DNA of 64,000 nt from a virus. Shown here piece after piece: positions 43,603 to 53,884 of the stretch. The notes below the pieces were generated by a model that did no database searches, was not told the DNA's origin, and saw only the letters and a list, made by a program, of their open reading frames with translations. The stretch spans positions 1 through 64,000 of IMG/VR virus record IMGVR_UViG_3300032053_000032; one strand, 5' to 3'. The position numbers were made by a program, and so were the translations under genes. Every line of letters begins with the position of its first letter. Position 1 is the stretch's first letter.

Positions 43603-43631
43603 AGTATGCTCGCTTTCCGCGTTGTATGCAA
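43603..43631 (-). promoter_or_regulatory. Early promoter, GAAAGCG family
   Basis: On the minus strand: TTGCAT (43631-43626), 17-nt spacer ending GCGGAAAGCGAG, CATACT (43608-43603), then 7 nt to ATG. A second GCGGAAAGCG arm lies inverted at 43642-43651, so the -35 box is enclosed by an inverted repeat that could bind a regulator. GCAAAATAGTT lies just upstream as a possible UP-element. Confidence 0.75.
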
Positions 43632-43655
43632 CAACTATTTTGCGGAAAGCGACGA

Positions 43656-44876
43656 TTAGCGACGTGACCGAGGCTGGAGGCCGGTCGCCTTGACGAACGG
43701 CTGCATCTTGGCGAGCACCGGCCGGGCTTCCGGGATTTGCGACAGCTCGCTATCGATGAGCGTTCCCATCGGGCGGATGCAGAGGTCAGCCATCTCGCCG
43801 ACCACCTCCCCGAGGATGCCCCAGAGGACCGTCGCGCGCGCCTTCCGCTTGTCGAGCTTCCGGTCTTCGAGGATGGTGGCGCACGCGTTGAGCGTGACCT
43901 CGGTGCGGTCGATGCGGTCCGGGTCGTGCGACCACTTCGTCACGCGGTCCATGACGTCGAGCGGGTTCGGCAGGTCGACCTTTTCGCGGTACTCGAACAG
44001 CTCCGAAGCTGCGCCGGCCCCCACAAACGACGCAACGAACTCCTCCGCATCGCCGACTTCGAGCCCGTTCACCTCACCGGAGGACAGCGCGCGGGCTGCA
44101 TTCTCCCAGGAGCGCGGAGAGCACCACGCGCGGCCGGCCTTCCCGTCTCCGAGCTTGGGCACCTTCAGGAGCGCGTCGGGCACGGCCTTGATGTAGCCGG
44201 CGACCACCGCGCGCGCCTTCGCCCACGGGCTGCCCCAGTTCTCCATCACCCGAGCTTCTTCAGAAGCTGCCGATCCAAGCACGACTTCGGTGTGACGGTC
44301 GGCACCGGACCCGAGGAGCCAGGACGTCCACTCGCCGACGTCCGGCCGGTTGTCCTGAAGCCAGGGCAGGTGCCCCATGCGGTTCGCGACCGGGGCAGGC
44401 AGCTCGCTTCCACCCGCGGACAGCTCCGGCGGGTTGGCTGCTCCGAAGATGCGGACGCGCCGCCCGAGGAAGTGCGCGCCGATCCGCTTCTCGTGGATGA
44501 GCCCCATCAGCGCGGGACGAAGCGCAGCGGGCGCCGTGTTCGTCTCGTCCACGAAGACGATGCCCACCGGAACTCCCTGGGCATCAAGCAGGTTGTCGGT
44601 CCACTCCGGGGGTGGGTAGGTGAGGATCATGCGGTCCACGATCTTGCCGTCCGGGTACTTGAACGGGCGGATCTCGGGCACCGGCGTCACGCCGAATGCG
44701 CCCTCCTGGCGCTCACCTGGCGACAGCACCTCGACGTACAGCCCAGTCTCCCGGCCGAGCTGGAGGATCGCTTCGGTCTTCCCGACACCGGGAACGTCCC
44801 AGAGCAGCATGGGAAGGCCCCAGCCGCGGCTGGTGGGCGTGAAGAGTGCGGCGCGGAGAATATCGAGGCGGCTCAT
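43656..44876 (-). CDS. MoxR-type AAA+ ATPase
   Basis: The start at 44876 was chosen for CAGGAG upstream; in-frame codons beyond it read through a structured non-coding stretch. This 406-residue protein has Walker A DVPGVGKT (27-34), Walker B IVFVDE (106-111), and FGAANPP (sensor 1). MoxR ATPases work with VWA proteins as chaperones or metal-insertion machines; the partner is at 42068-43444. Late in the sequence is a helical lid. Confidence 0.85.
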   Translation of the reverse strand: MSRLDILRAALFTPTSRGWGLPMLLWDVPGVGKTEAILQLGRETGLYVEVLSPGERQEGAFGVTPVPEIRPFKYPDGKIVDRMILTYPPPEWTDNLLDAQGVPVGIVFVDETNTAPAALRPALMGLIHEKRIGAHFLGRRVRIFGAANPPELSAGGSELPAPVANRMGHLPWLQDNRPDVGEWTSWLLGSGADRHTEVVLGSAASEEARVMENWGSPWAKARAVVAGYIKAVPDALLKVPKLGDGKAGRAWCSPRSWENAARALSSGEVNGLEVGDAEEFVASFVGAGAASELFEYREKVDLPNPLDVMDRVTKWSHDPDRIDRTEVTLNACATILEDRKLDKRKARATVLWGILGEVVGEMADLCIRPMGTLIDSELSQIPEARPVLAKMQPFVKATGLQPRSRR

Positions 44877-44914
44877 GTAATTGGCTCCTGGTAGAGGTCT
44901 TGGGCAAAGCGTCC

Positions 44915-45028
44915 CGCTCGTGCCCGGCGCAACGTGGTCCTGGTGTTCTGGAAGGCTTTTGTATCGCCTTGCCGAACCTGGGCCTCCGTTACGGGCCGAG
45001 GTGGGAGCCGTTGCGCCGGGCACGAGCG
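44915..45028 (-). ncRNA. Possible structured RNA closed by a perfect 20-bp inverted repeat
   Basis: 44915-44934 and 45009-45028 are exact reverse complements (20 bp), with 74 nt between. The interior holds AAGGC/GCCTT and CCTC/GAGG hairpins. It lies between a zinc protein and the MoxR gene on the minus strand, where it might be a processed RNA, an attenuator-like leader or a recombination site. It has no T-run. The strand is assigned by the flanking genes. Confidence 0.5.
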
Positions 45029-45048
45029 AGGCGTTCCGCGCCAGTCTG

Positions 45049-45243
45049 TTACTCCTCGTCGATGCAGGCGAGGCAGGTCGCTCGGTGAGCGCGGACGGTG
45101 TCCGCGACGCACGCGGGGCACATCGGCGCTTCGCACCGGGGGCAGTACATGCCGCCGGAGTCATCTCCGCAGCCCGTGCAGATCTCCGGGTTGGTGTTTT
45201 CGTCAGTGCGGTCGTACTCCATCGCGTTCGTCTGATTGCTCAT
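45049..45243 (-). CDS. Small zinc-binding protein (leaderless transcript)
   Basis: This 64-residue protein has CTGC, CPRC, CPAC and CLAC pairs spaced as a B-box or RING-like double zinc site. The ATG is 7 nt after a -10 box. It probably mediates protein or nucleic-acid contacts. It is acidic at the N-terminus. Confidence 0.7.
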   Translation of the reverse strand: MSNQTNAMEYDRTDENTNPEICTGCGDDSGGMYCPRCEAPMCPACVADTVRAHRATCLACIDEE

Positions 45244-45250
45244 GTTTCTT

Positions 45251-45279
45251 ACTATGCTCGCTTTCCTCGGTTTGTGCAA
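45251..45279 (-). promoter_or_regulatory. Early promoter, GAAAGCG family
   Basis: On the minus strand: TTGCAC (45279-45274), 17-nt spacer ending GAGGAAAGCGAG, CATAGT (45256-45251), 7 nt, ATG. GCAAAATAGTT precedes the -35 box, as at 43.6 kb. Confidence 0.75.
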
Positions 45280-45324
45280 GAACTATTTTGCAGCTCAGCG
45301 TTTTATTTCAAGTGCCGTCGGTGA

Positions 45325-45564
45325 CTACTCGTGGCTGGTGTCGCCGTCGTCCTTGTGGTGCTCGCAGCTCGCGCACCAGACGATGCCCTCCAAGGTCCGC
45401 TTGAGGGACAGGCTGACGCACTCGGGGCACAGCACGTGCCCACACCCGACGCAAACCTTCGCTCCAGGCGTGAGCACGTAGCCGAGATCTTCCACGAACT
45501 CGACCACGGAAGTCCCGCAGGACTCGTCGAGCGGTGCGCCAGGGCAGTTGGAGTTCGAGGCCAC
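45325..45564 (-). CDS. Small zinc-ribbon protein
   Basis: This 79-residue protein has a GTG start. CVGC, CPEC and CASC pairs form one or two zinc sites. A longer alternative reading in another frame was rejected because it destroys the Cys pattern. The family resembles other phage small zinc proteins nearby. The function is unknown. Confidence 0.65.
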   Translation of the reverse strand: MASNSNCPGAPLDESCGTSVVEFVEDLGYVLTPGAKVCVGCGHVLCPECVSLSLKRTLEGIVWCASCEHHKDDGDTSHE

Positions 45565-45601
45565 TAGTACTCGCCCTTGGCATCAAAGTGCGCGTCATCA
45601 C

Positions 45602-45808
45602 TCACTTCTTCTCCGTTAGCGTGATCGTCAGATTGTGTGCAGTGTCCTTGGACAAGACATCAATTGCCCATGAAGTCGTCAGGGACTTATCTGCAATCGA
45701 AGGGTGATGTGCTCTGACCCAAGCGTGGATGGCTTCAACAATCTCACTCGAATCGAGTATGACCTTCACAGGCAACTCCTCTGGCATTTCCCGATACGGG
45801 TTTGTCAT
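45602..45808 (-). CDS. Unknown 68-residue protein
   Basis: GAGGT lies upstream of the ATG. Acidic N-terminus, a helix (SEIVEAIHAWVRAHH) and a beta strand with NLTITLTEKK. Codons are more A/T-rich than those of neighbours, hinting at later acquisition. No family recognised. Confidence 0.55.
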   Translation of the reverse strand: MTNPYREMPEELPVKVILDSSEIVEAIHAWVRAHHPSIADKSLTTSWAIDVLSKDTAHNLTITLTEKK

Positions 45809-45820
45809 AAATACCTCACA

Positions 45821-45849
45821 GGCGGCTCGTCGTGAGAATCGAACTCACG
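45821..45849 (-). other. tRNA 3'-end-like T-arm (remnant or att-like site)
   Basis: On the minus strand, GTGAG-TTCGATT-CTCAC is a perfect T-arm with a consensus loop, followed by GACGAGC that could be the 3' half of an acceptor stem. No matching 5' acceptor, D-arm or anticodon arm was found upstream. Temperate phages often carry such 3' tRNA ends as attachment cores, but no integrase is visible here. The remaining ~120 bp up to 45962 contain no other feature I could support. Confidence 0.35.
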
Positions 45850-45962
45850 TAATTCCCAGAGTCTGATGTCCAACGGAGTTCGCCGTGCGTCGCGATCTCG
45901 TTAGCTACCTTCCTTAACCAGTTCGGCATACTGCAAGCGTGGGAGGTGCCGTAACAACTAGG

Positions 45963-46646
45963 TTAAACGCCGCGCTTTTTCAGCACACCGACGTGTTTAG
46001 CCACGCCGGCAGCACCCGAGATCGCGAACAGCACCTCCATGTCCGCCTCCAGATCTGCCAGTCGCTGGCCGCCCGCGTCGAAGACGGCCTGGATCCGGTT
46101 CAAAGTCTCGCGCCGAACGACCACAGCCAGCGTCATGTCCGACGCGATCTGCACCGCCCAGCGAGGCGCGTAGGTGCCGGCCGGGCGGACGTACACCTCC
46201 ATCTGCCGCGGCCCATGGATCGCTGCTTGGCGCTGTTTCCGAAGCGGCGGGTAGACGACGCCCGCCATCCCGTGGCCGTCGATCTGAACATAGCGCCGAA
46301 CCTCGTAGCTAGTCTCGATCCGGTCGACGTTGCTTCGCTGGATCGAAGCCGTCCCGTTACCCGCTGACACGAGTCCAGCCACGGCCATCTCCTTGCGCAC
46401 CCGTTCCTGCCCAGACTTCATCTGCCGACGCTGGCAGTGGCCCTCGACGACGTCTGACCCCTGGTGGCGGTAGAGATCCCGCGTTGCGCCACCGCACCAT
46501 GGGCACTTCACCACGCCTTCCAAGCGGGATCTCTCGGCTTTAGCCGCGCGAGCGACCGCGACGCGCTCGACCATCGCGTCTCGCTTCTGGAGCAAGTTGT
46601 CGATGGACACCGACGGGACCAGCGACTCGTTCACGGGAGTAGTCAT
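45963..46646 (-). CDS. Unknown protein with a zinc-like Cys cluster
   Basis: The start at the TGATG overlap with the upstream gene gives 227 residues. CPWCGGATRDLYRHQGSDVV with a later HC suggests a zinc site at residues ~50-75. The C-terminal part is alpha/beta. It lies directly behind a cyclotransferase-fold gene and may act in the same process. No family recognised. Confidence 0.6.
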   Translation of the reverse strand: MTTPVNESLVPSVSIDNLLQKRDAMVERVAVARAAKAERSRLEGVVKCPWCGGATRDLYRHQGSDVVEGHCQRRQMKSGQERVRKEMAVAGLVSAGNGTASIQRSNVDRIETSYEVRRYVQIDGHGMAGVVYPPLRKQRQAAIHGPRQMEVYVRPAGTYAPRWAVQIASDMTLAVVVRRETLNRIQAVFDAGGQRLADLEADMEVLFAISGAAGVAKHVGVLKKRGV

Positions 46647-47272
46647 CAGCGGGCCTTCCTGCGCGCTTTCGTGATCATGAGATCGGACGGCACGCTGCGC
46701 ACGGGGTTGAGGTAGTTCGTCTCGCGCGCCAGCGCCTCGCCGCGGTGGCCTGCCCAGGTGTCCGCCCACGAGGCCAGCATCGAGGCGCGGGTGGCGGCTG
46801 CTTGCTTGTCGGCGTGCATCTGGCGCGCGGCCGACTGGCGGATCGCATCGTCGAGAGGAGCAAGCGCCCACCCCATCGCGAGGTAAGCGCGGGCGATCTG
46901 TCGAAGGTAGCCGTTCGTCGGCGCGCCGTAGGCGAAGGGCGTCACCTGCCGGTAGACGTGCGCCTTGACGGCCTTCCCGCTCGGAACGAACACCGGGAAC
47001 ACGTCACGTGCGTACGTCCACGGCGCACCTTCGTAGCCGTCTAGCTTGGCAAGGTCTGCGCTGCTGACTTCCCACACGAGCCCGCGCACGACGTCGTTGC
47101 GGCTGGCTGCCTCCACCGTGGCAACCGTCGAGCCCCAGCTGCGCGAGTAGCCGGCGAACAGAAGCCGCTGCCCGCGCAGCTCGGCTGGAGCCACGAGGTC
47201 GGAGGATGGGCAGCGGTGCGCCATCTGCGCTGCGTCCATGTTCGACCCGAACGCGAAGACGAGCTGGCTCAC
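46646..47272 (-). CDS. Gamma-glutamylcyclotransferase-fold protein, copy 1
   Basis: This 208-residue protein has a GTG start overlapping the upstream stop. LVFAFGSNM is the substrate-loop signature of the GGCT/AIG2 fold, and LAKLDGYEG carries the catalytic Glu (E81) in the usual LDxxEG context. The extra ~80 C-terminal residues are helical and basic. GGCT enzymes cleave gamma-glutamyl amides to 5-oxoproline; with an amidoligase upstream, peptide-like modification and its removal are possible. Confidence 0.8.
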   Translation of the reverse strand: MSQLVFAFGSNMDAAQMAHRCPSSDLVAPAELRGQRLLFAGYSRSWGSTVATVEAASRNDVVRGLVWEVSSADLAKLDGYEGAPWTYARDVFPVFVPSGKAVKAHVYRQVTPFAYGAPTNGYLRQIARAYLAMGWALAPLDDAIRQSAARQMHADKQAAATRASMLASWADTWAGHRGEALARETNYLNPVRSVPSDLMITKARRKAR

Positions 47273-47460
47273 GTGCTACCTCCTGCGAACGCGGATGGGA
47301 TCCCGCTGGCCACCCGATCGCGATCAAGCTCGATTAGGCGCACCAGGTCGAGCTGTTCGACGAACACCCAACGATAGCCGCGGCCGGCCGCGTCCTTGTC
47401 GAGCGACTTCAGGAACGCCCATGTGAGCGGGTAGAAGTGCATGATCTTCATGTTGCTCAT
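47269..47460 (-). CDS. Unknown 63-residue protein
   Basis: The ATG lies inside the upstream stop (ATGA). The protein has MKIMHFYPLTWAFLKSLD and a charged helical end. It is co-translated with its neighbours. No family recognised. Confidence 0.55.
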   Translation of the reverse strand: MSNMKIMHFYPLTWAFLKSLDKDAAGRGYRWVFVEQLDLVRLIELDRDRVASGIPSAFAGGST

Positions 47461-47744
47461 CGACCCACCCGACGGATCGGCCGAGCGTTGAGCTGCGCAA
47501 CGATGAACTGCGCGAGCGCGACCCACTCGCCAGGGGTAGGTGCCCAGAGGCGCTGCCCTTCGTTGCCGCAGCAGCCATCGGCGCAGCGGTCATCGAAGAT
47601 GTTGACCAGCACGTCGACTTCGACGCGGAACGCCTTGGCCGTCATCAGCGACGCCTTCTGAGCCGCAGTCCACTGGATGCGGAGGACGTTGGCAGGCTGA
47701 AGGCTGAGGACTCGGCCGGCCGCTTGAATTTGCGTTTTGCTCAT
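47457..47744 (-). CDS. Unknown 95-residue protein (leaderless transcript)
   Basis: The ATG is 7 nt behind a -10 box of the GAAAGCG-type promoter. RCADGCCGNEG is a Cys cluster near residues 52-62. Starts MSKTQ, as the 45243 gene starts MSNQT, because the promoter and start segment are shared. The function is unknown. Confidence 0.6.
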   Translation of the reverse strand: MSKTQIQAAGRVLSLQPANVLRIQWTAAQKASLMTAKAFRVEVDVLVNIFDDRCADGCCGNEGQRLWAPTPGEWVALAQFIVAQLNARPIRRVGR

Positions 47745-47751
47745 GTTTCTT

Positions 47752-47780
47752 ACTATGGGCGCTTTCCGCGTTGTATGCAA
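47752..47780 (-). promoter_or_regulatory. Early promoter, GAAAGCG family
   Basis: On the minus strand: TTGCAT (47780-47775), 17-nt spacer ending GCGGAAAGCGCC, CATAGT (47757-47752), 7 nt, ATG. The segment GAAATCGCATTTTGCCCC just upstream is identical to that at 50.7 kb. Confidence 0.75.
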
Positions 47781-47835
47781 GGGGCAAAATGCGATTTCTT
47801 CGGAAATCGTACAAGCTACCGTAACTGCTAGCGTG

Positions 47836-48120
47836 CTAGGCGACCTCTTCCACGAGCTTCGCGCTGATCAACGAAGCGATGATGCGCTGACAGAGCACGT
47901 CCATCGCGGTCACGGCTCCCACCTTGCCGGCCGGTGTCTCGTCGGTGCGCTCCGACGACACGTCGATCAGAAGCCCGGTCTGCTGCATCACCCGATGAAG
48001 CAACGTGACGACATACTCGCCCAGCGTCTCACCAGGTGAGAAGTCCATCGCGCGCAGCGACTCGATGATCTGGCGCGCAGTCCCCTGGTGCAGTCGTCCG
48101 TCCGGCATCTTGATCCGCAT
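47836..48120 (-). CDS. Unknown 94-residue protein
   Basis: GGGAGG precedes the ATG. A basic N-terminus (MRIKMPDGRLHQG) is followed by helices. It is the last gene of the amidoligase operon before a promoter. No family recognised. Confidence 0.55.
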   Translation of the reverse strand: MRIKMPDGRLHQGTARQIIESLRAMDFSPGETLGEYVVTLLHRVMQQTGLLIDVSSERTDETPAGKVGAVTAMDVLCQRIIASLISAKLVEEVA

Positions 48121-48122
48121 GG

Positions 48123-48521
48123 CTAGTCCTCCCTGGTGTAGTCGATCGCGTTGTAGTGACTGGCGACGCCGTCGAGCCAGTCTCCCGTCGGAATCTCGAT
48201 GTTGCTCCACTTCCGATCGTGGCTCATCACGTACCCGAGGACGGTGGAGCCGTCCAGCAGGTGAATCAACTGACGGTGGTACAGGCTAGGAGCACCTTCC
48301 AGGCGATCGAGGCGCGCCAGGGTCTTGTCGTCCACCTGGTAGACTTCCCCGACGATGGGCACCCCGCGCCACGTCCAGGTGATGCAAGGGTACCCACCGA
48401 GGTGCCACATCTGCCAGGTGGGCTCCGTGCGCGCGTGACGCAAGAAGGTAGCGCCGGCCAGGTGGTAGTGGTTTCCCTGACCAGAGCGGAGCGTGCCGTA
48501 CACAAAGACTTCGGTGAGCAT
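48123..48521 (-). CDS. Gamma-glutamylcyclotransferase-fold protein, copy 2
   Basis: This 132-residue protein starts VFVYGTLRSGQGN, the AIG2/GGCT substrate loop, and has LDRLEGAPSLYHR with the catalytic Glu (E75). It is the short AIG2-like form and lies directly behind the amidoligase; such pairs are known in phages and were proposed to form and cut isopeptide-type bonds on proteins or small molecules. Confidence 0.85.
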   Translation of the reverse strand: MLTEVFVYGTLRSGQGNHYHLAGATFLRHARTEPTWQMWHLGGYPCITWTWRGVPIVGEVYQVDDKTLARLDRLEGAPSLYHRQLIHLLDGSTVLGYVMSHDRKWSNIEIPTGDWLDGVASHYNAIDYTRED

Positions 48522-48544
48522 CGCGATCTCCTGTCTTGGGCGGG

Positions 48545-49513
48545 TTAGCTGTTGTCGTCCGACGAGGCGGCCGCGATGACCGCTGCGGTGGCAAGCTGGA
48601 AGGACACGGAACCGCTGGAGGCCGCAGTGGCGACGGGCGCCGCGGTAAAGGCCGCCATCAGGTGGGTGCGCACGGTGCTGAACTCCTCACCCTTGCTGAA
48701 GCCGAGCTTGCTGACCAGGTACGTCATGCCCGCGCGGTCCGCCGTGATGGGCGTCGAGAGGGGGATGGAGGTCTTCCAGGTCTTGCAGCGAGCGACCATC
48801 GCGAGGCAGAGCTGGATGTACGCCTTGACTTTGCCAGCGTGAAGGGTCGAGTTGAAGAGGCGGAACTCCACGGTGCCCTTGGTCCAGACCGCGTGAAGGT
48901 TCAGGGCCTGGTAGCGGCTGCCATCGTAGTGCGTGGGGTAGTTCTCGACACGGCCGTACCAGGCGCGTGAGAGGCCGCGCGAATCCTTGGCGATGGTAGC
49001 GCGCTCCGAAGCAGGAGCGCGGCGCAGACGCTCGCAGAGGGTCTTGCCAAGCTTCTTGCAGTACTGTTCGCGACGGGGAAGGACCGCGAGCGACGTGAAG
49101 AGCAGATCCTGGTAGTAGTGCATGAGCGACGCGAGGTTGATGGTGTTCTGCGCCGTGAGCGACTCGGCGCCGACATGGACGTGGATGCCACACGACTCGT
49201 CAACCTGCGCGCCGCAAGCGCGAACGGCGCGAACAACCGCCTGAACCGTGTCGAGGTCGCTGTACACGAGGATGGGCGAGACGACTTCCGCGCCACCGTT
49301 ACAGGGAAGCGACCCGTCGCGCATCGACTTCCAGACGCGCCCGTCGGTGGCAGTAACGATCCAGGTATCGTAGCTATCGTGCGTGTGGGTGACGACGCCA
49401 CCGACGACCGACTGAACGGCCTCTGCAACAACCTGGCGGCTCTTGCCGAACGTTTCGACTTCGAGGCCAAAGCGGAAAGACTTCATCGACTCGGTCTGGT
49501 TCGCGGTGGTCAT
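48545..49513 (-). CDS. Amidoligase-family COOH-NH2 ligase
   Basis: This 322-residue protein has the Amidoligase_2 motifs: GLEVETFG (16-23), SCGIHVHVG (107-115), LNLHAVW (204-210), TKGTVEFRLF (211-220), and a helical C-terminus. The fold is that of the glutamine-synthetase-like ligases, which use ATP to join a carboxylate to an amine. The ATG follows TATAGT by 7 nt without a ribosome-binding site. It starts the accessory operon containing the GGCT genes. Confidence 0.9.
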   Translation of the reverse strand: MTTANQTESMKSFRFGLEVETFGKSRQVVAEAVQSVVGGVVTHTHDSYDTWIVTATDGRVWKSMRDGSLPCNGGAEVVSPILVYSDLDTVQAVVRAVRACGAQVDESCGIHVHVGAESLTAQNTINLASLMHYYQDLLFTSLAVLPRREQYCKKLGKTLCERLRRAPASERATIAKDSRGLSRAWYGRVENYPTHYDGSRYQALNLHAVWTKGTVEFRLFNSTLHAGKVKAYIQLCLAMVARCKTWKTSIPLSTPITADRAGMTYLVSKLGFSKGEEFSTVRTHLMAAFTAAPVATAASSGSVSFQLATAAVIAAASSDDNS

Positions 49514-49520
49514 GAGAGGT

Positions 49521-49538
49521 ACTATATGCGTATTCTGT
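49521..49538 (-). promoter_or_regulatory. Amidoligase promoter
   Basis: On the minus strand TATAGT (49526-49521) lies 7 nt before the ATG. TGGCACAGAATACGCA just upstream is nearly repeated before the divergent gene at 49956 (TGGCACAGAAAACGCATA). GG-N10-GC spacing also resembles a sigma-54 -24/-12 element; which factor is used is not known. Confidence 0.5.
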
Positions 49539-49789
49539 GCCAGTCGCGGTTTCTGCGGTCGCTTACGTGGTTTCGCACACTTAGCCGAATGACGTGCCCA
49601 AGCGAGTGCCGCAAATTGTCTCTAAGAGTTACGCCTACTTACGTGCAAATAGCTGAAATTGCAGGTAACGCGGAGACTGCAATTAGTGCATAGCTTGCCG
49701 TAAATTGTCACTTCGCGCTGAGCGAGCAAACGTATCCTTTATACGCGGTTTCTGCGGAACACGCGTACCCGGCTTTTGCGCTCGTAAGC

Positions 49790-49810
49790 GGCTAGTTTGA
49801 CTAGCCTTTT
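49790..49810 (+). terminator. Terminator-like hairpin inside the control region
   Basis: GGCTAG-TTTGA-CTAGCC followed by TTTT on the plus strand. No annotated plus-strand gene ends here, so it may close a short RNA or act as a leader attenuator for the 49956 operon. Confidence 0.6.
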
Positions 49811-49861
49811 GCTACCAGAAGCACCCCAGTGACTTCACCTACCTGTGACGCCAACGGCACA

Positions 49862-49879
49862 CGGTCAACATGTTGACCG
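49862..49879. promoter_or_regulatory. Perfect 18-bp palindrome, operator candidate
   Basis: CGGTCAACATGTTGACCG is its own reverse complement and lies 77 nt upstream of the 49956 start. Its dimer symmetry suits a repressor or activator operator. Confidence 0.6.
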
Positions 49880-49955
49880 GCTAGGTAAGTATGAGGAATG
49901 ACATAGCTGGCACGGGCAAACCGCCTATGGCACAGAAAACGCATAGAGAGAAGAT

Positions 49956-50486
49956 ATGTCAAACACCGGTTACGAGAACGCACCCCAGACGCTCCTCCTC
50001 GCTACGAACTGCGCTGCGTGCAATCGCCCGCTCTGCGACAGCGTCTCGGTGAACGCCGGCATCGGTCCCGAGTGCCGCAAGAAGTACGGTTACAACGATG
50101 ACGCGACGCCCGAAGCGCGTGCTGAAGCGAACCAGATCGTCTGGTCCATCGCGGTCGCGGGCTCGACCGTCTCCAGCGTCGAGGCCGCGTGCCGTCTCGC
50201 TGAGCTGGGGTTTGGCAAGCTCGCGCGCAAGATCATCGAGCGCACCGCCGACATCGTCATCGAGCTGTCGAGCTGCGGCACCCTCTACATGGTGACCACG
50301 CCCTACAACGAGGCGGCCACCAGCGACTTCCGCAACATCCCCGGCCGCCGCTGGCTGAAGGCGCTCAAGGAGAACCACATCCCCGTCACCTCGCGCCGCC
50401 AGCTCTGGAACGCGCTCTGCGCCCACTTCACCGGGATGATCGGCTGCGGTCCGTCGGGCGCTTTTGTAGTTCAGGCGGTGCGCTAG
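49956..50486 (+). CDS. Zinc-motif and HARP-like DNA-binding protein
   Basis: This 176-residue protein has CAACNRPLCDSVS and NAGIGPECRKKYG near the N-terminus, a zinc signature found in phage proteins of the DUF6011 type. The C-terminal part (TPYNEAATSDFRNIPGRRW, then LKALKENHIPV) resembles the HARP repeats of SNF2-type helicases, which bind branched DNA. A plain GAGAG lies upstream. First gene of the plus-strand early cluster. Confidence 0.65.
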   Translation: MSNTGYENAPQTLLLATNCAACNRPLCDSVSVNAGIGPECRKKYGYNDDATPEARAEANQIVWSIAVAGSTVSSVEAACRLAELGFGKLARKIIERTADIVIELSSCGTLYMVTTPYNEAATSDFRNIPGRRWLKALKENHIPVTSRRQLWNALCAHFTGMIGCGPSGAFVVQAVR

Positions 50487-50713
50487 TGGGCGCTGTCGAC
50501 TTCATGTCGCAGCAGGGGCTGTTCCGCGAGCACGACGTCATCCTCGTCCTGGCGACGCCGCGCACCGTCTGCGGACGTCTCACGCCGGCCATCTGGCAGA
50601 TCCAGCAACAGAGCCAGAACCGTCGCTGTCGGCGGTGCTACCCCAACGAGGTAGCCGCGCGGAGCGCCGAGCACGCCATGAGCACGCGCGTCACCGACGG
50701 GCAGAAAAAATAA
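50486..50713 (+). CDS. Unknown 75-residue protein
   Basis: The GTG overlaps the upstream TAG. Cys pattern CRRC with another Cys upstream may bind zinc. Ends with a charged tail. No family recognised. Confidence 0.5.
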   Translation: MGAVDFMSQQGLFREHDVILVLATPRTVCGRLTPAIWQIQQQSQNRRCRRCYPNEVAARSAEHAMSTRVTDGQKK

Positions 50714-50736
50714 ACGAAGAAATCGCATTTTGCCCC

Positions 50737-50765
50737 TTGCACAAACTGAAGAAAGCGAGCATACT
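50737..50765 (+). promoter_or_regulatory. Early promoter, GAAAGCG family
   Basis: TTGCAC (50737-50742), 17-nt spacer ending GAAGAAAGCGAG, CATACT (50760-50765), then 7 nt to the ATG. From the -10 box to the ninth codon or so the sequence equals that at 43.6 kb. Confidence 0.75.
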
Positions 50766-50772
50766 GCTTCTC

Positions 50773-50904
50773 ATGGAAACGAACTCGAAGAAGACGACGC
50801 TCAAGTTCAAGGTGGTCTGCATGGAGTGCGGGCGCAAGTTCAGCACATCCTCGACGCTTCCGAGCTGCTCCAAGTGTGGCTCATCCGACATCGAGGTTGC
50901 GTAG
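50773..50904 (+). CDS. Tiny zinc-ribbon protein (leaderless transcript)
   Basis: This 43-residue protein has CMECG and CSKCG knuckles, the rubredoxin-like zinc ribbon in which two loops hold one zinc. It starts METNS like the gene at 43449. It abuts the 50905 gene with no gap. Such ribbons often serve as DNA or protein adaptors. Confidence 0.7.
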   Translation: METNSKKTTLKFKVVCMECGRKFSTSSTLPSCSKCGSSDIEVA

Positions 50905-51678
50905 ATGGCGCGCATGGCCCGCGCAAGCCGCAAGCCCTTCCCGACGGAAACGGCTCTCCTGCCGTTCCTGGCCATTCAGGTCTTGCACTCGGTTTTCTTC
51001 CCCGAATGGCGGCATCTTCGAGCGTGGGACCTCTGGATCGCCGCTACTTCCGAACAAGTCTATGGCGGCTTCAGCACGCCGCTCGCCCGCTTCGGGGAAG
51101 CTCTCGCGTGGGCAGGAGCTGCCGCGGTCGCCCAGGACATCGTGGGGCGTTGCAGTGTGCGCGCTGAAGTGCGGATCGAAGCGGGCATTCAGGTGGACGC
51201 TTCACCGTGGGAGCTGGCGCAGCTTCAGGCGATGTCGACCGGCATCGTGCGCAAGGACCAACTCAACCCGGTTGCCGCGCTGTACGCCAAGTATCGCGCC
51301 GAGAAGTCGCAGAACATCGCGGTGCTCAAGAACGAGCACTTCGGCGCCATCGGTGACCGCGTGTCCGTCAAGCTCCGCGTCGAGATGGTCAAGGAGCTGG
51401 AGCCGAGCACCCAGTATAACGTCGCGTACGCGTCACGAAACACCCGTAACAATCTGCGCACGCTCCTCCGCTTCGTGGACGACGCCGGCCGCGTGTTCGT
51501 CTGGTTCGCGTCGCACGCTGCAAACGATGTATTCGCGCAGCACGGCGCCGACGGCCTGAAGCCCGTGAAGCCCGGTTCCACCTACAACGTGGTGGGTACA
51601 GTCCTCAAGCAGGACGAGTTCCGCGGGCAGAAGTCCACGATGCTCAGCCGCTGTGTCTTGACGGCGTTCGCCGAATAG
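50905..51678 (+). CDS. Unknown early protein with OB-like C-terminal domain
   Basis: This 257-residue protein has a helical N-terminal half and a beta-barrel-like C-terminal half (VSVKLRVEMVKELEPS, VDDAGRVFVWFASH, YNVVGTVLKQDEFRGQKSTMLSRC). The latter pattern occurs in phage and plasmid proteins believed to bind single strands. It has the start directly behind the zinc ribbon gene, so translation is coupled. Confidence 0.55.
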   Translation: MARMARASRKPFPTETALLPFLAIQVLHSVFFPEWRHLRAWDLWIAATSEQVYGGFSTPLARFGEALAWAGAAAVAQDIVGRCSVRAEVRIEAGIQVDASPWELAQLQAMSTGIVRKDQLNPVAALYAKYRAEKSQNIAVLKNEHFGAIGDRVSVKLRVEMVKELEPSTQYNVAYASRNTRNNLRTLLRFVDDAGRVFVWFASHAANDVFAQHGADGLKPVKPGSTYNVVGTVLKQDEFRGQKSTMLSRCVLTAFAE

Positions 51679-51700
51679 TTCACAAACTGCAAAAAGAACC

Positions 51701-51730
51701 TTGACACAAACTACACAATTCGCGTAAAGT
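51701..51730 (+). promoter_or_regulatory. Sigma-70-like early promoter
   Basis: TTGACA (51701-51706), 18 nt, TAAAGT (51725-51730). Drives the 51777 gene; an AGGAG ribosome-binding site lies between. The region is AT-rich relative to its neighbours. Confidence 0.65.
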
Positions 51731-51776
51731 ACCTCAGTACCGTAAAGCACTTCACCCGCACAGGAGACACCACGCC

Positions 51777-52355
51777 ATGACGACCAAGACGCCTGCCACC
51801 AACCATCCGATCGGAGCCCGTCGCAAGCCACGCTCCAGCACCCCGGCTACCCCTGCTGCTCCCTCGCCAGCGGTTATTGCAGCGCAGCCGGCGACTTCGG
51901 CAGCGGAAGCTGCCGCCACCCCGGCCGTGCCCAAGCGGTCGCGCACCAGCGAGATCGCTTCGTGGGCCAACCGTCAGCACGACATTGCCAAGAAGCTGAT
52001 CGGGCGCGTCGAGCGGTACGACAACGCTCACGCGGTGGCTGCTGCCACACTGCTCACCGAAGCGTCGCGCCTCCTTCACGAGGCCAGCATCGCTCTCGCG
52101 CAGGTGCCGGCAGACGCGGTTGCGCGGCGTGGGCGCCGCAGCGGCAAGGCTGAGATCAAGGTGGGGGACGTCTGCGGGATCACCTCAAAGTTCCTCGACG
52201 AGTACACCGACCTGCTCGCGGACGGAGACATCGACGGACCGATGACGGTCCTCAAGACCGGCGTGAAGACCGTCAGCGTGCAGACCGCGAGCGGCGAGAA
52301 GCTGCCCATGGTCCCGCGAAAGCACCTCGTCCTCTGCAAGCCCAAGGCTGCGTGA
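51777..52355 (+). CDS. Unknown early protein
   Basis: This 192-residue protein has an Ala/Pro/Thr-rich disordered N-terminus (~60 residues), a helical middle and a beta-strand end (VKTVSVQTASGEKLPMVPRKHLVLC). Near its stop GTGATG the next gene starts. It has the style of an adaptor protein. No family recognised. Confidence 0.55.
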   Translation: MTTKTPATNHPIGARRKPRSSTPATPAAPSPAVIAAQPATSAAEAAATPAVPKRSRTSEIASWANRQHDIAKKLIGRVERYDNAHAVAAATLLTEASRLLHEASIALAQVPADAVARRGRRSGKAEIKVGDVCGITSKFLDEYTDLLADGDIDGPMTVLKTGVKTVSVQTASGEKLPMVPRKHLVLCKPKAA

Positions 52356-53215
52356 TGGGCCTCGCAAACGGGCAGAACGCGCTCGGGGTGGTCGTCGTTC
52401 CGGGCAACGAGTGGCTGGTCGCTGGGGCGCTTGTTCTCTGGAGGCTCTCCGGCGTCACCGATGATGATCAGCTTGGCGCGGCGTGGTCGCGCGCAGGGCT
52501 CGACCGCGCGATGCTTCCCAAGGAGACGTCGCTCAAGGACGCGATGAGGATCGCGGTGCAGAAGCAGGTGGCGAAGCACCGGCTCGTGCGACGAACGTCG
52601 ACGGGCTGGCAGATCGTGGACGAACGCGAGCTGGCCTCCTCCGACGATCTGGAGTGGACGCCTACCTGCAAGGTGAAGCTGGACAAGGTCGGCCGGCTCG
52701 ACATCAGGCCCGCCGATCACGCGCTCGCGCCGGCCATCCGCGCCGCGTACGACCTTGCGCAGGAGACGCTCTCGACCAACCGCACGTCATCGTGGCTCGT
52801 CTCGCTCGTGCATCACTGCCGCGGCGTTTCGATCACCCGTGAAGGCGGGATGTACTTCATCCCGAACGCGCTCCTCCCGGTCTGGCGGACGATGACCGGG
52901 GCGATCCGAGAAGCGACAATGCACAGCACCTACGAGATCCCGGCCATGACGGCTGACGACGTCGTTCGCCTCGTGCTTGACGCCGTCGTCGATGAAGCCA
53001 CGAAGCTCACGACCATCATCGAGACGGAACTGGACACCGGCGATCTCGGCCGTGATGCGCTCGCCACCCGTTACGACAAGATCGTGGCGGTCTGCGCCAA
53101 GGCAGAGACGTACGAAGCTCTGCTCGACAACCGGCTCGACAAGATCCGCGAACGGCTGATCACGCTCCAGGCTTCCATCACGGAAGCCGCTCTCGCGAAA
53201 GGGGACGACCAATGA
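52355..53215 (+). CDS. DUF6744-like early phage protein
   Basis: The ATG was chosen because it overlaps the TGA of the previous gene; a GTG one codon upstream is the alternative. The 286-residue protein has an alpha/beta N-terminus, LVSLVHHCRGVSITREGGMYFIP (a motif seen in a widespread phage family of unknown function), and a long helical coiled-coil end. It may serve in DNA or RNA metabolism. Coupled to the sigma-like gene by ATGA. Confidence 0.6.
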   Translation: MGLANGQNALGVVVVPGNEWLVAGALVLWRLSGVTDDDQLGAAWSRAGLDRAMLPKETSLKDAMRIAVQKQVAKHRLVRRTSTGWQIVDERELASSDDLEWTPTCKVKLDKVGRLDIRPADHALAPAIRAAYDLAQETLSTNRTSSWLVSLVHHCRGVSITREGGMYFIPNALLPVWRTMTGAIREATMHSTYEIPAMTADDVVRLVLDAVVDEATKLTTIIETELDTGDLGRDALATRYDKIVAVCAKAETYEALLDNRLDKIRERLITLQASITEAALAKGDDQ

Positions 53216-53826
53216 TCGAGGTGGACGTCAAGACGATCGGCAAGGTCGCCAAGACGGTAGCGCGCAAGTACGCGCGCAGGTGCTGGTGGGCGGACAAGGA
53301 AGACCTGGAGCAGGAGGCGCTCCTCACGATCCTCCAGTGCCGCTACACCTTCAAGCAGGACGTCCACCGCCAGCCGCACGAAGTCGGCGACCGCGGCGTG
53401 CCATTCGAGAAGTACGCCGCCCGCGCGGCCATGCTCGCGCTGCGGGTCTACCTTCTGCGCGAGTCGGCGCCCGTGTCGGCGCGTGGCAACAACGGCGCGA
53501 TGGGGGTGCTCGCCGGCATCTTCCGTGCGCCAACGTCCAGCCTCGACCACACGCCTCACGAGGCATGTCTTCAGGATCAGGAAGTCCTTCACCAGCTCTG
53601 GCTCTCCAAGGTGCGCGCTGTGGTGGCGCGCCTCCTTGACGAGATGGACGCTACCGCGACGGGTGCAGCCTTCCTCGCTGAACCCGTACTCTTGCACGAC
53701 GCGCGGCCGTACGAGGTAGCGCGGCGCACCGGCGTGCCTGTCAAGCGGGTCTACCGCGCGGTGCAGCAGTTCAAGGCGTTCGCGGTGGCTGACCCGGAGC
53801 TGCACACGCTCTGGAAGGCCAGGTAG
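53212..53826 (+). CDS. Sigma-70-like (ECF-type) RNA polymerase sigma factor
   Basis: This 204-residue protein has a region 2-like segment (YARRCWWADKEDLEQEALLTIL, with the DLxQEA core) and a region 4-like helix-turn-helix (PYEVARRTGVPVKRVYRAVQQFK), as in ECF sigma factors. It could direct the host polymerase to phage promoters. The window has several promoters of one common shape, which are candidates for it or for the host sigma. Confidence 0.7.
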   Translation: MIEVDVKTIGKVAKTVARKYARRCWWADKEDLEQEALLTILQCRYTFKQDVHRQPHEVGDRGVPFEKYAARAAMLALRVYLLRESAPVSARGNNGAMGVLAGIFRAPTSSLDHTPHEACLQDQEVLHQLWLSKVRAVVARLLDEMDATATGAAFLAEPVLLHDARPYEVARRTGVPVKRVYRAVQQFKAFAVADPELHTLWKAR

Positions 53827-53855
53827 CTAGTCAAGCGCCGCGTGCAAGATTCAAG

Positions 53856-53884
53856 TTGACGCTTTCGCGGAAAGCGCGCATATT
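53856..53884 (+). promoter_or_regulatory. Early promoter with CGCTTTC/GAAAGCG palindrome
   Basis: TTGACG (53856-53861), 17 nt, CATATT (53879-53884). The spacer contains a 17-bp palindrome CGCTTTC-GCG-GAAAGCG (53860-53876), a likely operator. Unlike its relatives it has a leader with AGGAG before the ATG. Confidence 0.75.

Follow-up and report, generated by a model that had tools for sequence, protein, structure and literature searches.

Predicted leaderless promoters and promoter cassettes shuffled by recombination are each known from phages. In the excerpts of the published accounts drawn on here, three SigA promoters of the cluster O mycobacteriophages (Corndog group), PL1, PR2 and PL2, are predicted to be leaderless, and a 17-bp palindrome of 7-3-7 architecture with invariant arms occurs in 34 copies in Corndog, many of them in or near genes, recombination between its copies having been deduced (PMC4351075). 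The lambda cI mRNA is named as leaderless (PMC9031893). T4-type phages carry PeSLs, cassettes of an early promoter and a stem-loop terminator that mediate the shuffling of modules by recombination (PMC4503421), and cluster K mycobacteriophages carry the SAS and ESAS elements, short repeats that directly precede many start codons and in about half of the cases go together with dyad repeats; the SAS can pair in part with 16S rRNA and has a proposed role in translation initiation (PMC3203893). The DNA analyzed here, referred to as the window, spans positions 1 to 64,000 of a virus record of 85,027 bases (IMG/VR record IMGVR_UViG_3300032053_000032), and its early region carries a family of five promoters, P1 to P5. 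We favor, with moderate confidence, the reading that P1–P4 are paralogous early promoters of the sigma-70 type, fused to start codons and leaderless, which were copied and then reshuffled by recombination. Both known features would be combined here, the start and the first codons traveling with the promoter. No copied family of leaderless promoter cassettes in phages was found in a literature search from which subscription papers were largely absent, which makes for weak evidence of novelty.

The five sites, as described in an earlier note on this DNA, were all recovered by exact pattern match: P1 (TTGCAT-N17-CATACT, 43603–43631), P2 (TTGCAC-N17-CATAGT, 45251–45279) and P3 (TTGCAT-N17-CATAGT, 47752–47780) on the minus strand, and P4 (TTGCAC-N17-CATACT, 50737–50765) and P5 (TTGACG-N17-CATATT, 53856–53884) on the plus strand, with P1–P4 also supported by alignment. 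All are intergenic, all have a spacer of 17 nt, and all fit the common pattern TTG-N11-GAAAGCG-NN-CATANT. The pattern TTGNNNNNNNNNNNGAAAGCGNNCATANT has exactly five exact matches in the whole record, the next-best matches carrying two and three mismatches, and GAAAGCGNGCATANT, with up to two mismatches allowed, is matched five times in the window versus 0.84 expected, a number reached in none of 100 shuffles. When a weight matrix was built from the other four sites, each omitted site ranked between third and fifth of 169,998 positions, above every non-member, with scores of 33.6–38.9 for P1–P4 versus 14.8–18.3 for the best non-members. P5 is the weakest member, with a modest margin (17.8 versus 14.9 for the best non-member), and retains TTG, GAAAGCG and CATA-T though the rest of its sequence diverges. 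The distinctive feature of the family is the combination of elements in register, and not GAAAGCG alone. Pattern scans of the whole collection returned 65 and 55 stretches, roughly chance level by estimate, and support neither direction.

Alignment of P1–P4 on the ATG revealed 26 columns that split the four sequences two versus two, arranged as a three-block mosaic. An upstream block of 8 columns (−50 to −38) joins P1 with P2 and P3 with P4; a core grouping of 6 columns, of which four lie between −31 and −24 and the other two at −60/−59, joins P1 with P3 and P2 with P4; and a discriminator-plus-start block of 12 columns (−9 to +11) joins P1 with P4 and P2 with P3. With the two versions of each block numbered, P1 consists of modules U1, C1 and D1, P2 of U1, C2 and D2, P3 of U2, C1 and D2, and P4 of U2, C2 and D1. 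The 26 informative sites form four runs, and none of 100,000 random orders gave four or fewer. The block borders lie at or beside invariant stretches, TTGCA first and then GAAAGCG and CATA, and identity extends over 27 nt upstream in P3/P4, 21 nt in the core of P1/P3, 38 nt at the start of P1/P4 (through ATGGAAACGAACTCGA) and 21 nt at the start of P2/P3 (through ATGAGCAA), the genes diverging after the shared first codons in both start pairs. Because all three possible groupings are supported, each in its own block, no tree free of recombination explains P1–P4 well, and the position of the switches at or beside conserved promoter elements shows, at the level of sequence, that the copies have recombined with each other.

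The earlier note had already recorded the two start pairs, which are as it described them, and not the mosaic. Its proposal of copied promoter-plus-start cassettes is well supported for P1–P4, to which mutual recombination is now added; P5, on the other hand, has the family promoter and not the start, and the copying "around the genome" that it envisaged is seen only in a stretch of roughly 10 kb in the early region and not genome-wide. On the favored reading, which the sequence bears out on this point, the copies arose by duplication and were afterwards reshuffled, through recombination or gene conversion, with the exchange points on or next to the conserved promoter elements. A module may thus swap the upstream region, the spacer core, or the start region with its first codons, and would still work, since the elements common to all copies keep it in register. 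In this sense the clean three-block mosaic preserves, on a small scale, a natural trace of recombination guided by promoter elements. In the parts of the cluster O account at hand (PMC4351075) no copied promoter-plus-start cassettes are described, whereas four paralogous copies with shared first codons and spacer core are present here.

In each of P1–P4 the ATG lies exactly 7 nt past the −10 hexamer, with no ribosome-binding site, in agreement with what had been noted before, and the base directly before it is a C; the intervening nucleotides are GCTTCTC or AAGAAAC. The genes that begin in this way encode proteins of 48 aa (P1, 43449–43595, minus strand), 64 aa with a weak zinc-finger match (P2, 45049–45243, minus), 95 aa (P3, 47457–47744, minus) and 43 aa, a zinc ribbon (P4, 50773–50904, plus), those of P1 and P4 starting with METNS. 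P5 has a leader with AGGAG before its gene. Transcription usually starts 7–8 bases after the −10 box, so the P1–P4 transcripts would begin at the ATG, at or next to its A (C at −1, A at +1), so that the first gene in each of four small transcription units would be translated from a leaderless mRNA; the likeliest reader would be host RNA polymerase carrying the main sigma factor. Throughout the record, 32 hexamers fit [CT]ATA[CGT]T, and an ATG follows at 7 nt in five cases, at 4 nt in one and at 12 nt in one, with no other within the range of 0–15 nt. The five 7-nt cases are P1–P4 and the amidoligase gene (48545–49513, minus strand), whose promoter region, designated Q1 (TGGCACAGAATACGCATATAGT, 49521–49542, minus), is dissimilar to P1–P4, has TATAGT 7 nt before the ATG and contains no recognizable −35 box. 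The amidoligase start appears sound, as no start codon in its frame lies further upstream than this ATG and the match to an amidoligase family begins at residue 3.

Leaderless initiation at P1–P4 is therefore likely from the geometry of the sequence: of the earlier argument for it, the exact spacing stands, and is joined by the independent amidoligase promoter with the same spacing, whereas the missing ribosome-binding site is in itself unremarkable in this record. A cassette of this kind would be self-contained and, needing no ribosome-binding site, could switch on any reading frame joined to it. The lambda cI transcript, which comes from a repressor-activated promoter, is alike in being a phage mRNA that starts at AUG, as predicted here; it differs in belonging to a single gene and not to a copied family. 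With the SAS, judged from the available parts of its description, the likeness is that of a repeat close to the start, whereas the repeat here is promoter-like and has no ribosome-binding site; no motif resembling the SAS sequence GGGATAGGAGCCC was detected in the pre-ATG sequences of P1–P4.

Several observations weigh against this interpretation. The first base of the −10 box is C in all five promoters instead of the consensus T, the −35 boxes of P1–P4 agree with TTGACA at only three of six positions, and a standard sigma-70 consensus scan detects P5 and none of P1–P4, so that the label "sigma-70-type" rests on the spacing and on partial matches. Taken by itself, the heptamer GAAAGCG occurs at chance level (15 copies versus 15.1 expected), which weakens the idea that it is an operator, and the two core-type sites at −60/−59 lie outside the neat order of the blocks. 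P1–P4 are related copies and hence not four independent proofs of the 7-nt spacing, a clear ribosome-binding site is absent at 45 of the 105 starts predicted by our own codon-usage script (not a standard gene finder), so that its absence alone proves little, and among 81 family sequences, which total 1.67 Mb and in part overlap, a distance of 7 nt to the ATG is not enriched (7 cases versus a mean of about 14 per distance), so that leaderless initiation as a family-wide habit was rejected. Finally, no match to the promoter motif with fewer than three mismatches was found in eight related contigs, all of them distant (helicase identity 45–53%).

The relatives were gathered as viral loci found with the helicase alone (2), with a helicase alignment (8) and with a primase alignment (80). 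Searches of a phage collection by DNA and by the tail-sheath protein returned no match, those with the DNA polymerase and the amidoligase gave only distant matches (<60% identity), and an ATPase query against viral contigs gave no confirmed relative. The similarity in relatives that the earlier note had named as a check was thus missing when the eight contigs were scanned, and transfer of the cassettes between genomes is not supported; the P1–P5 cassettes are particular to this phage among the distant family sequences compared. In the related contig G004 two positions reach higher matrix scores (21.7 and 16.5); both fall within predicted genes and were treated as chance matches.

Of the other explanations, the one that survives best, although we consider it unlikely, holds that P1–P4 are ordinary leadered promoters whose real −10 box lies further upstream, with weak or coupled translation starts. 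The frequent absence of a clear ribosome-binding site in this record, which is consequently not diagnostic, and the modest −35 and −10 matches of P1–P4 speak for it. The alignment, however, contains no other −10-like sequence common to all four, and the distance from −10 to ATG is fixed at 7 nt though those 7 nt differ between the two start modules; moreover, the P4 zinc ribbon, as we read its sequence, requires the upstream ATG in order to contain both CxxC cysteines.

Somewhat more doubtful is a regulon of the phage's own sigma factor, in which P1–P5 would be read by the product of 53212–53826 (plus strand) and not by host sigma-70, with the C of the −10 box and the spacer element as its specificity. 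This gene ends about 30 nt before P5 and probably encodes a sigma factor with regions 2 and 4, judging from sequence profiles and a structural model: its match to Pfam Sigma70_r2 is weak (E 0.0098, below the curated cut-off), region 4 is matched, again below the cut-off, in its homologue in locus L073, and RpoD chains are retrieved by a profile built from seven homologues (E 9.5e-06). Its predicted model (pLDDT 75.8, pTM 0.41) retrieves, among the top Foldseek matches listed, mostly sigma factors or polymerase complexes containing sigma, at E values of 0.019 or worse. The C shared by all five −10 boxes would fit such a specificity. Against it stand the Foldseek E values above 0.01 and the low pTM, the sigma-70-like appearance of the elements and of their 17-nt spacing, and the presence of sigma homologues in 27 of 95 overlapping family records, yet of the motif in none of the eight related contigs. 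In several related contigs the sigma homologue stands in the same gene order beside the helicase. Less probable still is a combination of this regulon with the start cassettes, in which the phage sigma factor would read the C-first −10 box and the GAAAGCG spacer, four of the five promoters would be fused to leaderless starts, and recombination would re-pair the modules; if it were true, promoter strength and protein N-termini would be reassorted together. Homologues of the sigma-like, helix-turn-helix and helicase proteins of this phage family are also encoded on a 4.2-kb contig (L080) in an Asgard archaeon genome bin, which is probably a misbinned piece of phage.

The gap between the −35 and −10 boxes of P5 is filled by a perfect 7-3-7 palindrome, CGCTTTC-GCG-GAAAGCG (CGCTTTCGCGGAAAGCG, 53860–53876), proposed here as an operator, and the gene behind P5 (53909–54136, plus strand) encodes a 75-aa helix-turn-helix protein of the excisionase/MerR-like type (HTH_17, E 2.2e-09). 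A dyad between −35 and −10 occupies the usual position of an operator, which makes autoregulation of P5 by this protein a fair proposal. The spacers of P1–P4 carry a single GAAAGCG, and the full dyad is present only in P5; as GAAAGCG is half of the palindrome, it may well be a half-site of the regulator in P1–P4 as well, for which the helix-turn-helix protein would be the candidate. GAAAGCG as a genome-wide operator was rejected on account of its chance-level count. Compared with the cluster O palindromes, to the extent that the excerpts describe them, the P5 dyad has the same 7-3-7 architecture, and recombination between copies is proposed in both cases; here, by contrast, the palindrome is complete only once, within a promoter, and the other promoters each have a single half-site.

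That the repeats are sites of recombination (inversion or shuffling) and not promoters, their nearness to starts being incidental, is very unlikely. The copies are indeed mosaic, P4 is inverted relative to P1–P3, and the orientation of the ATPase and VWA genes relative to the genes downstream varies among relatives, being collinear in some and opposed in others; on the other hand, two relatives with the inverted arrangement have no motif, the conservation is centered on the −35 box, the spacer and the −10 box, and no recombinase was recognized among the scanned proteins, which are a part of the proteome. Least probable is the reading as RNA elements, terminators or stem-loop cassettes like the T4-type PeSLs, for which the strong fold of P1 (z −3.9 versus shuffles), the hairpin of 7 bp that the U2 module of P3 contains (CGATTTC-N4-GAAATCG, 47792–47809) and the repeated cassettes of stem-loop plus ribosome-binding site in the same early region of relatives can be cited, and which fails because P2, P4 and P5 fold no better than shuffles (z +0.69, +0.36 and +1.38, respectively) and the hairpin is present in P4 with one arm only. 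A shared RNA hairpin was likewise rejected, the stable fold being found in P1 and the hairpin in P3 only.

The context of the favored promoter-plus-start cassettes resembles that of PeSLs. P1 and its 48-aa gene, which has no homologue in the family sequences, sit between the ATPase and VWA genes, which adjoin (gap of at most about 90 nt) in six of the eight relatives; in the other two, L074 and L079, a different small reading frame occupies the junction, that of L074 coming after a stem-loop plus ribosome-binding-site sequence. No homologue of any of the four first genes was found in 95 family sequences (some overlapping), and the same holds for most other genes of the 45–52 kb block, which marks the block as accessory and does not single out the cassettes. 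PeSL cassettes, the subject of Arbiol 2010 and Comeau 2014, are said to link related genomes. Judged from the available parts of their description, both systems have repeated early-promoter cassettes between genes, shuffled by recombination, whereas here there is no consistent stem-loop, there are no copies in the eight distant relatives, and the cassette includes the start codon. The comparison with T4-type mobile cassettes made in the earlier note consequently holds for the similar working and the position at an accessory border, and fails for the stem-loop, which is not a common feature, and for the motif, which was found in none of the eight relatives.

Other repeated regulatory sequences were observed in the relatives. 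Stem-loop plus AAGGAG-like cassettes recur upstream of several early-region genes in G003 (86.9–91.5 kb), G006 (76.7–82.6 kb) and G007 (48.8–56.4 kb), and G007 contains a further repeated start cassette, GGGAAAAA...GGGGCAAGG, before several genes (3.6–33.5 kb). Three copies of a promoter TTGACAC...GTGTATACT, two of them divergent, are found in G008 at 7.8–9.6 kb (L079, 2556 on the minus and 2581 on the plus strand), with a dyad between −35 and −10 as in P5 and of other sequence. Phages of this group may habitually carry repeated regulatory cassettes whose motif differs from genome to genome.

The record has the gene content of a tailed phage, with matches to tail-sheath-like, baseplate, terminase and portal proteins in family scans that covered part of its proteins, and it also encodes replication-type proteins (DNA polymerase, DnaB-like helicase, primase, RecA-like and SbcCD-like). 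The structural genes occupy 1–40 kb in rightward orientation, and the block with one arm extending leftward (49.5 to 40.4 kb) and one rightward (from 49.9 kb) would be early, as suggested by its position and gene content. Between the two arms of this block lies a 440-bp non-coding divergent control region (49514–49955) with short repeats, a perfect palindrome GGTCAACATGTTGACC (49863–49878) and a terminator-like hairpin (49790–49806). A divergent copy of Q1, designated Q2 (TGGCACAGAAAACGCATA, 49928–49945, plus strand), stands 10 nt before the ATG of a gene encoding a DUF6011-domain protein (49956–50486). The duplicated start-proximal element itself, TGGCACAGAAWACGCATA, is matched twice (49525–49542, minus, and 49928–49945, plus) versus 0.03 expected, and its copies end about 10 nt before the ATG of the amidoligase and DUF6011-domain genes. 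A sigma-54-like reading of TGGCAC-N5-ACGC in Q1 and Q2 was considered, but two key bases misfit that promoter type. Beyond the window, at 71565–73597 of the record (minus strand; L005, 7565–9597), two neighboring genes that match phosphoadenosine phosphosulfate reductase families are oriented opposite to the genes that flank them.

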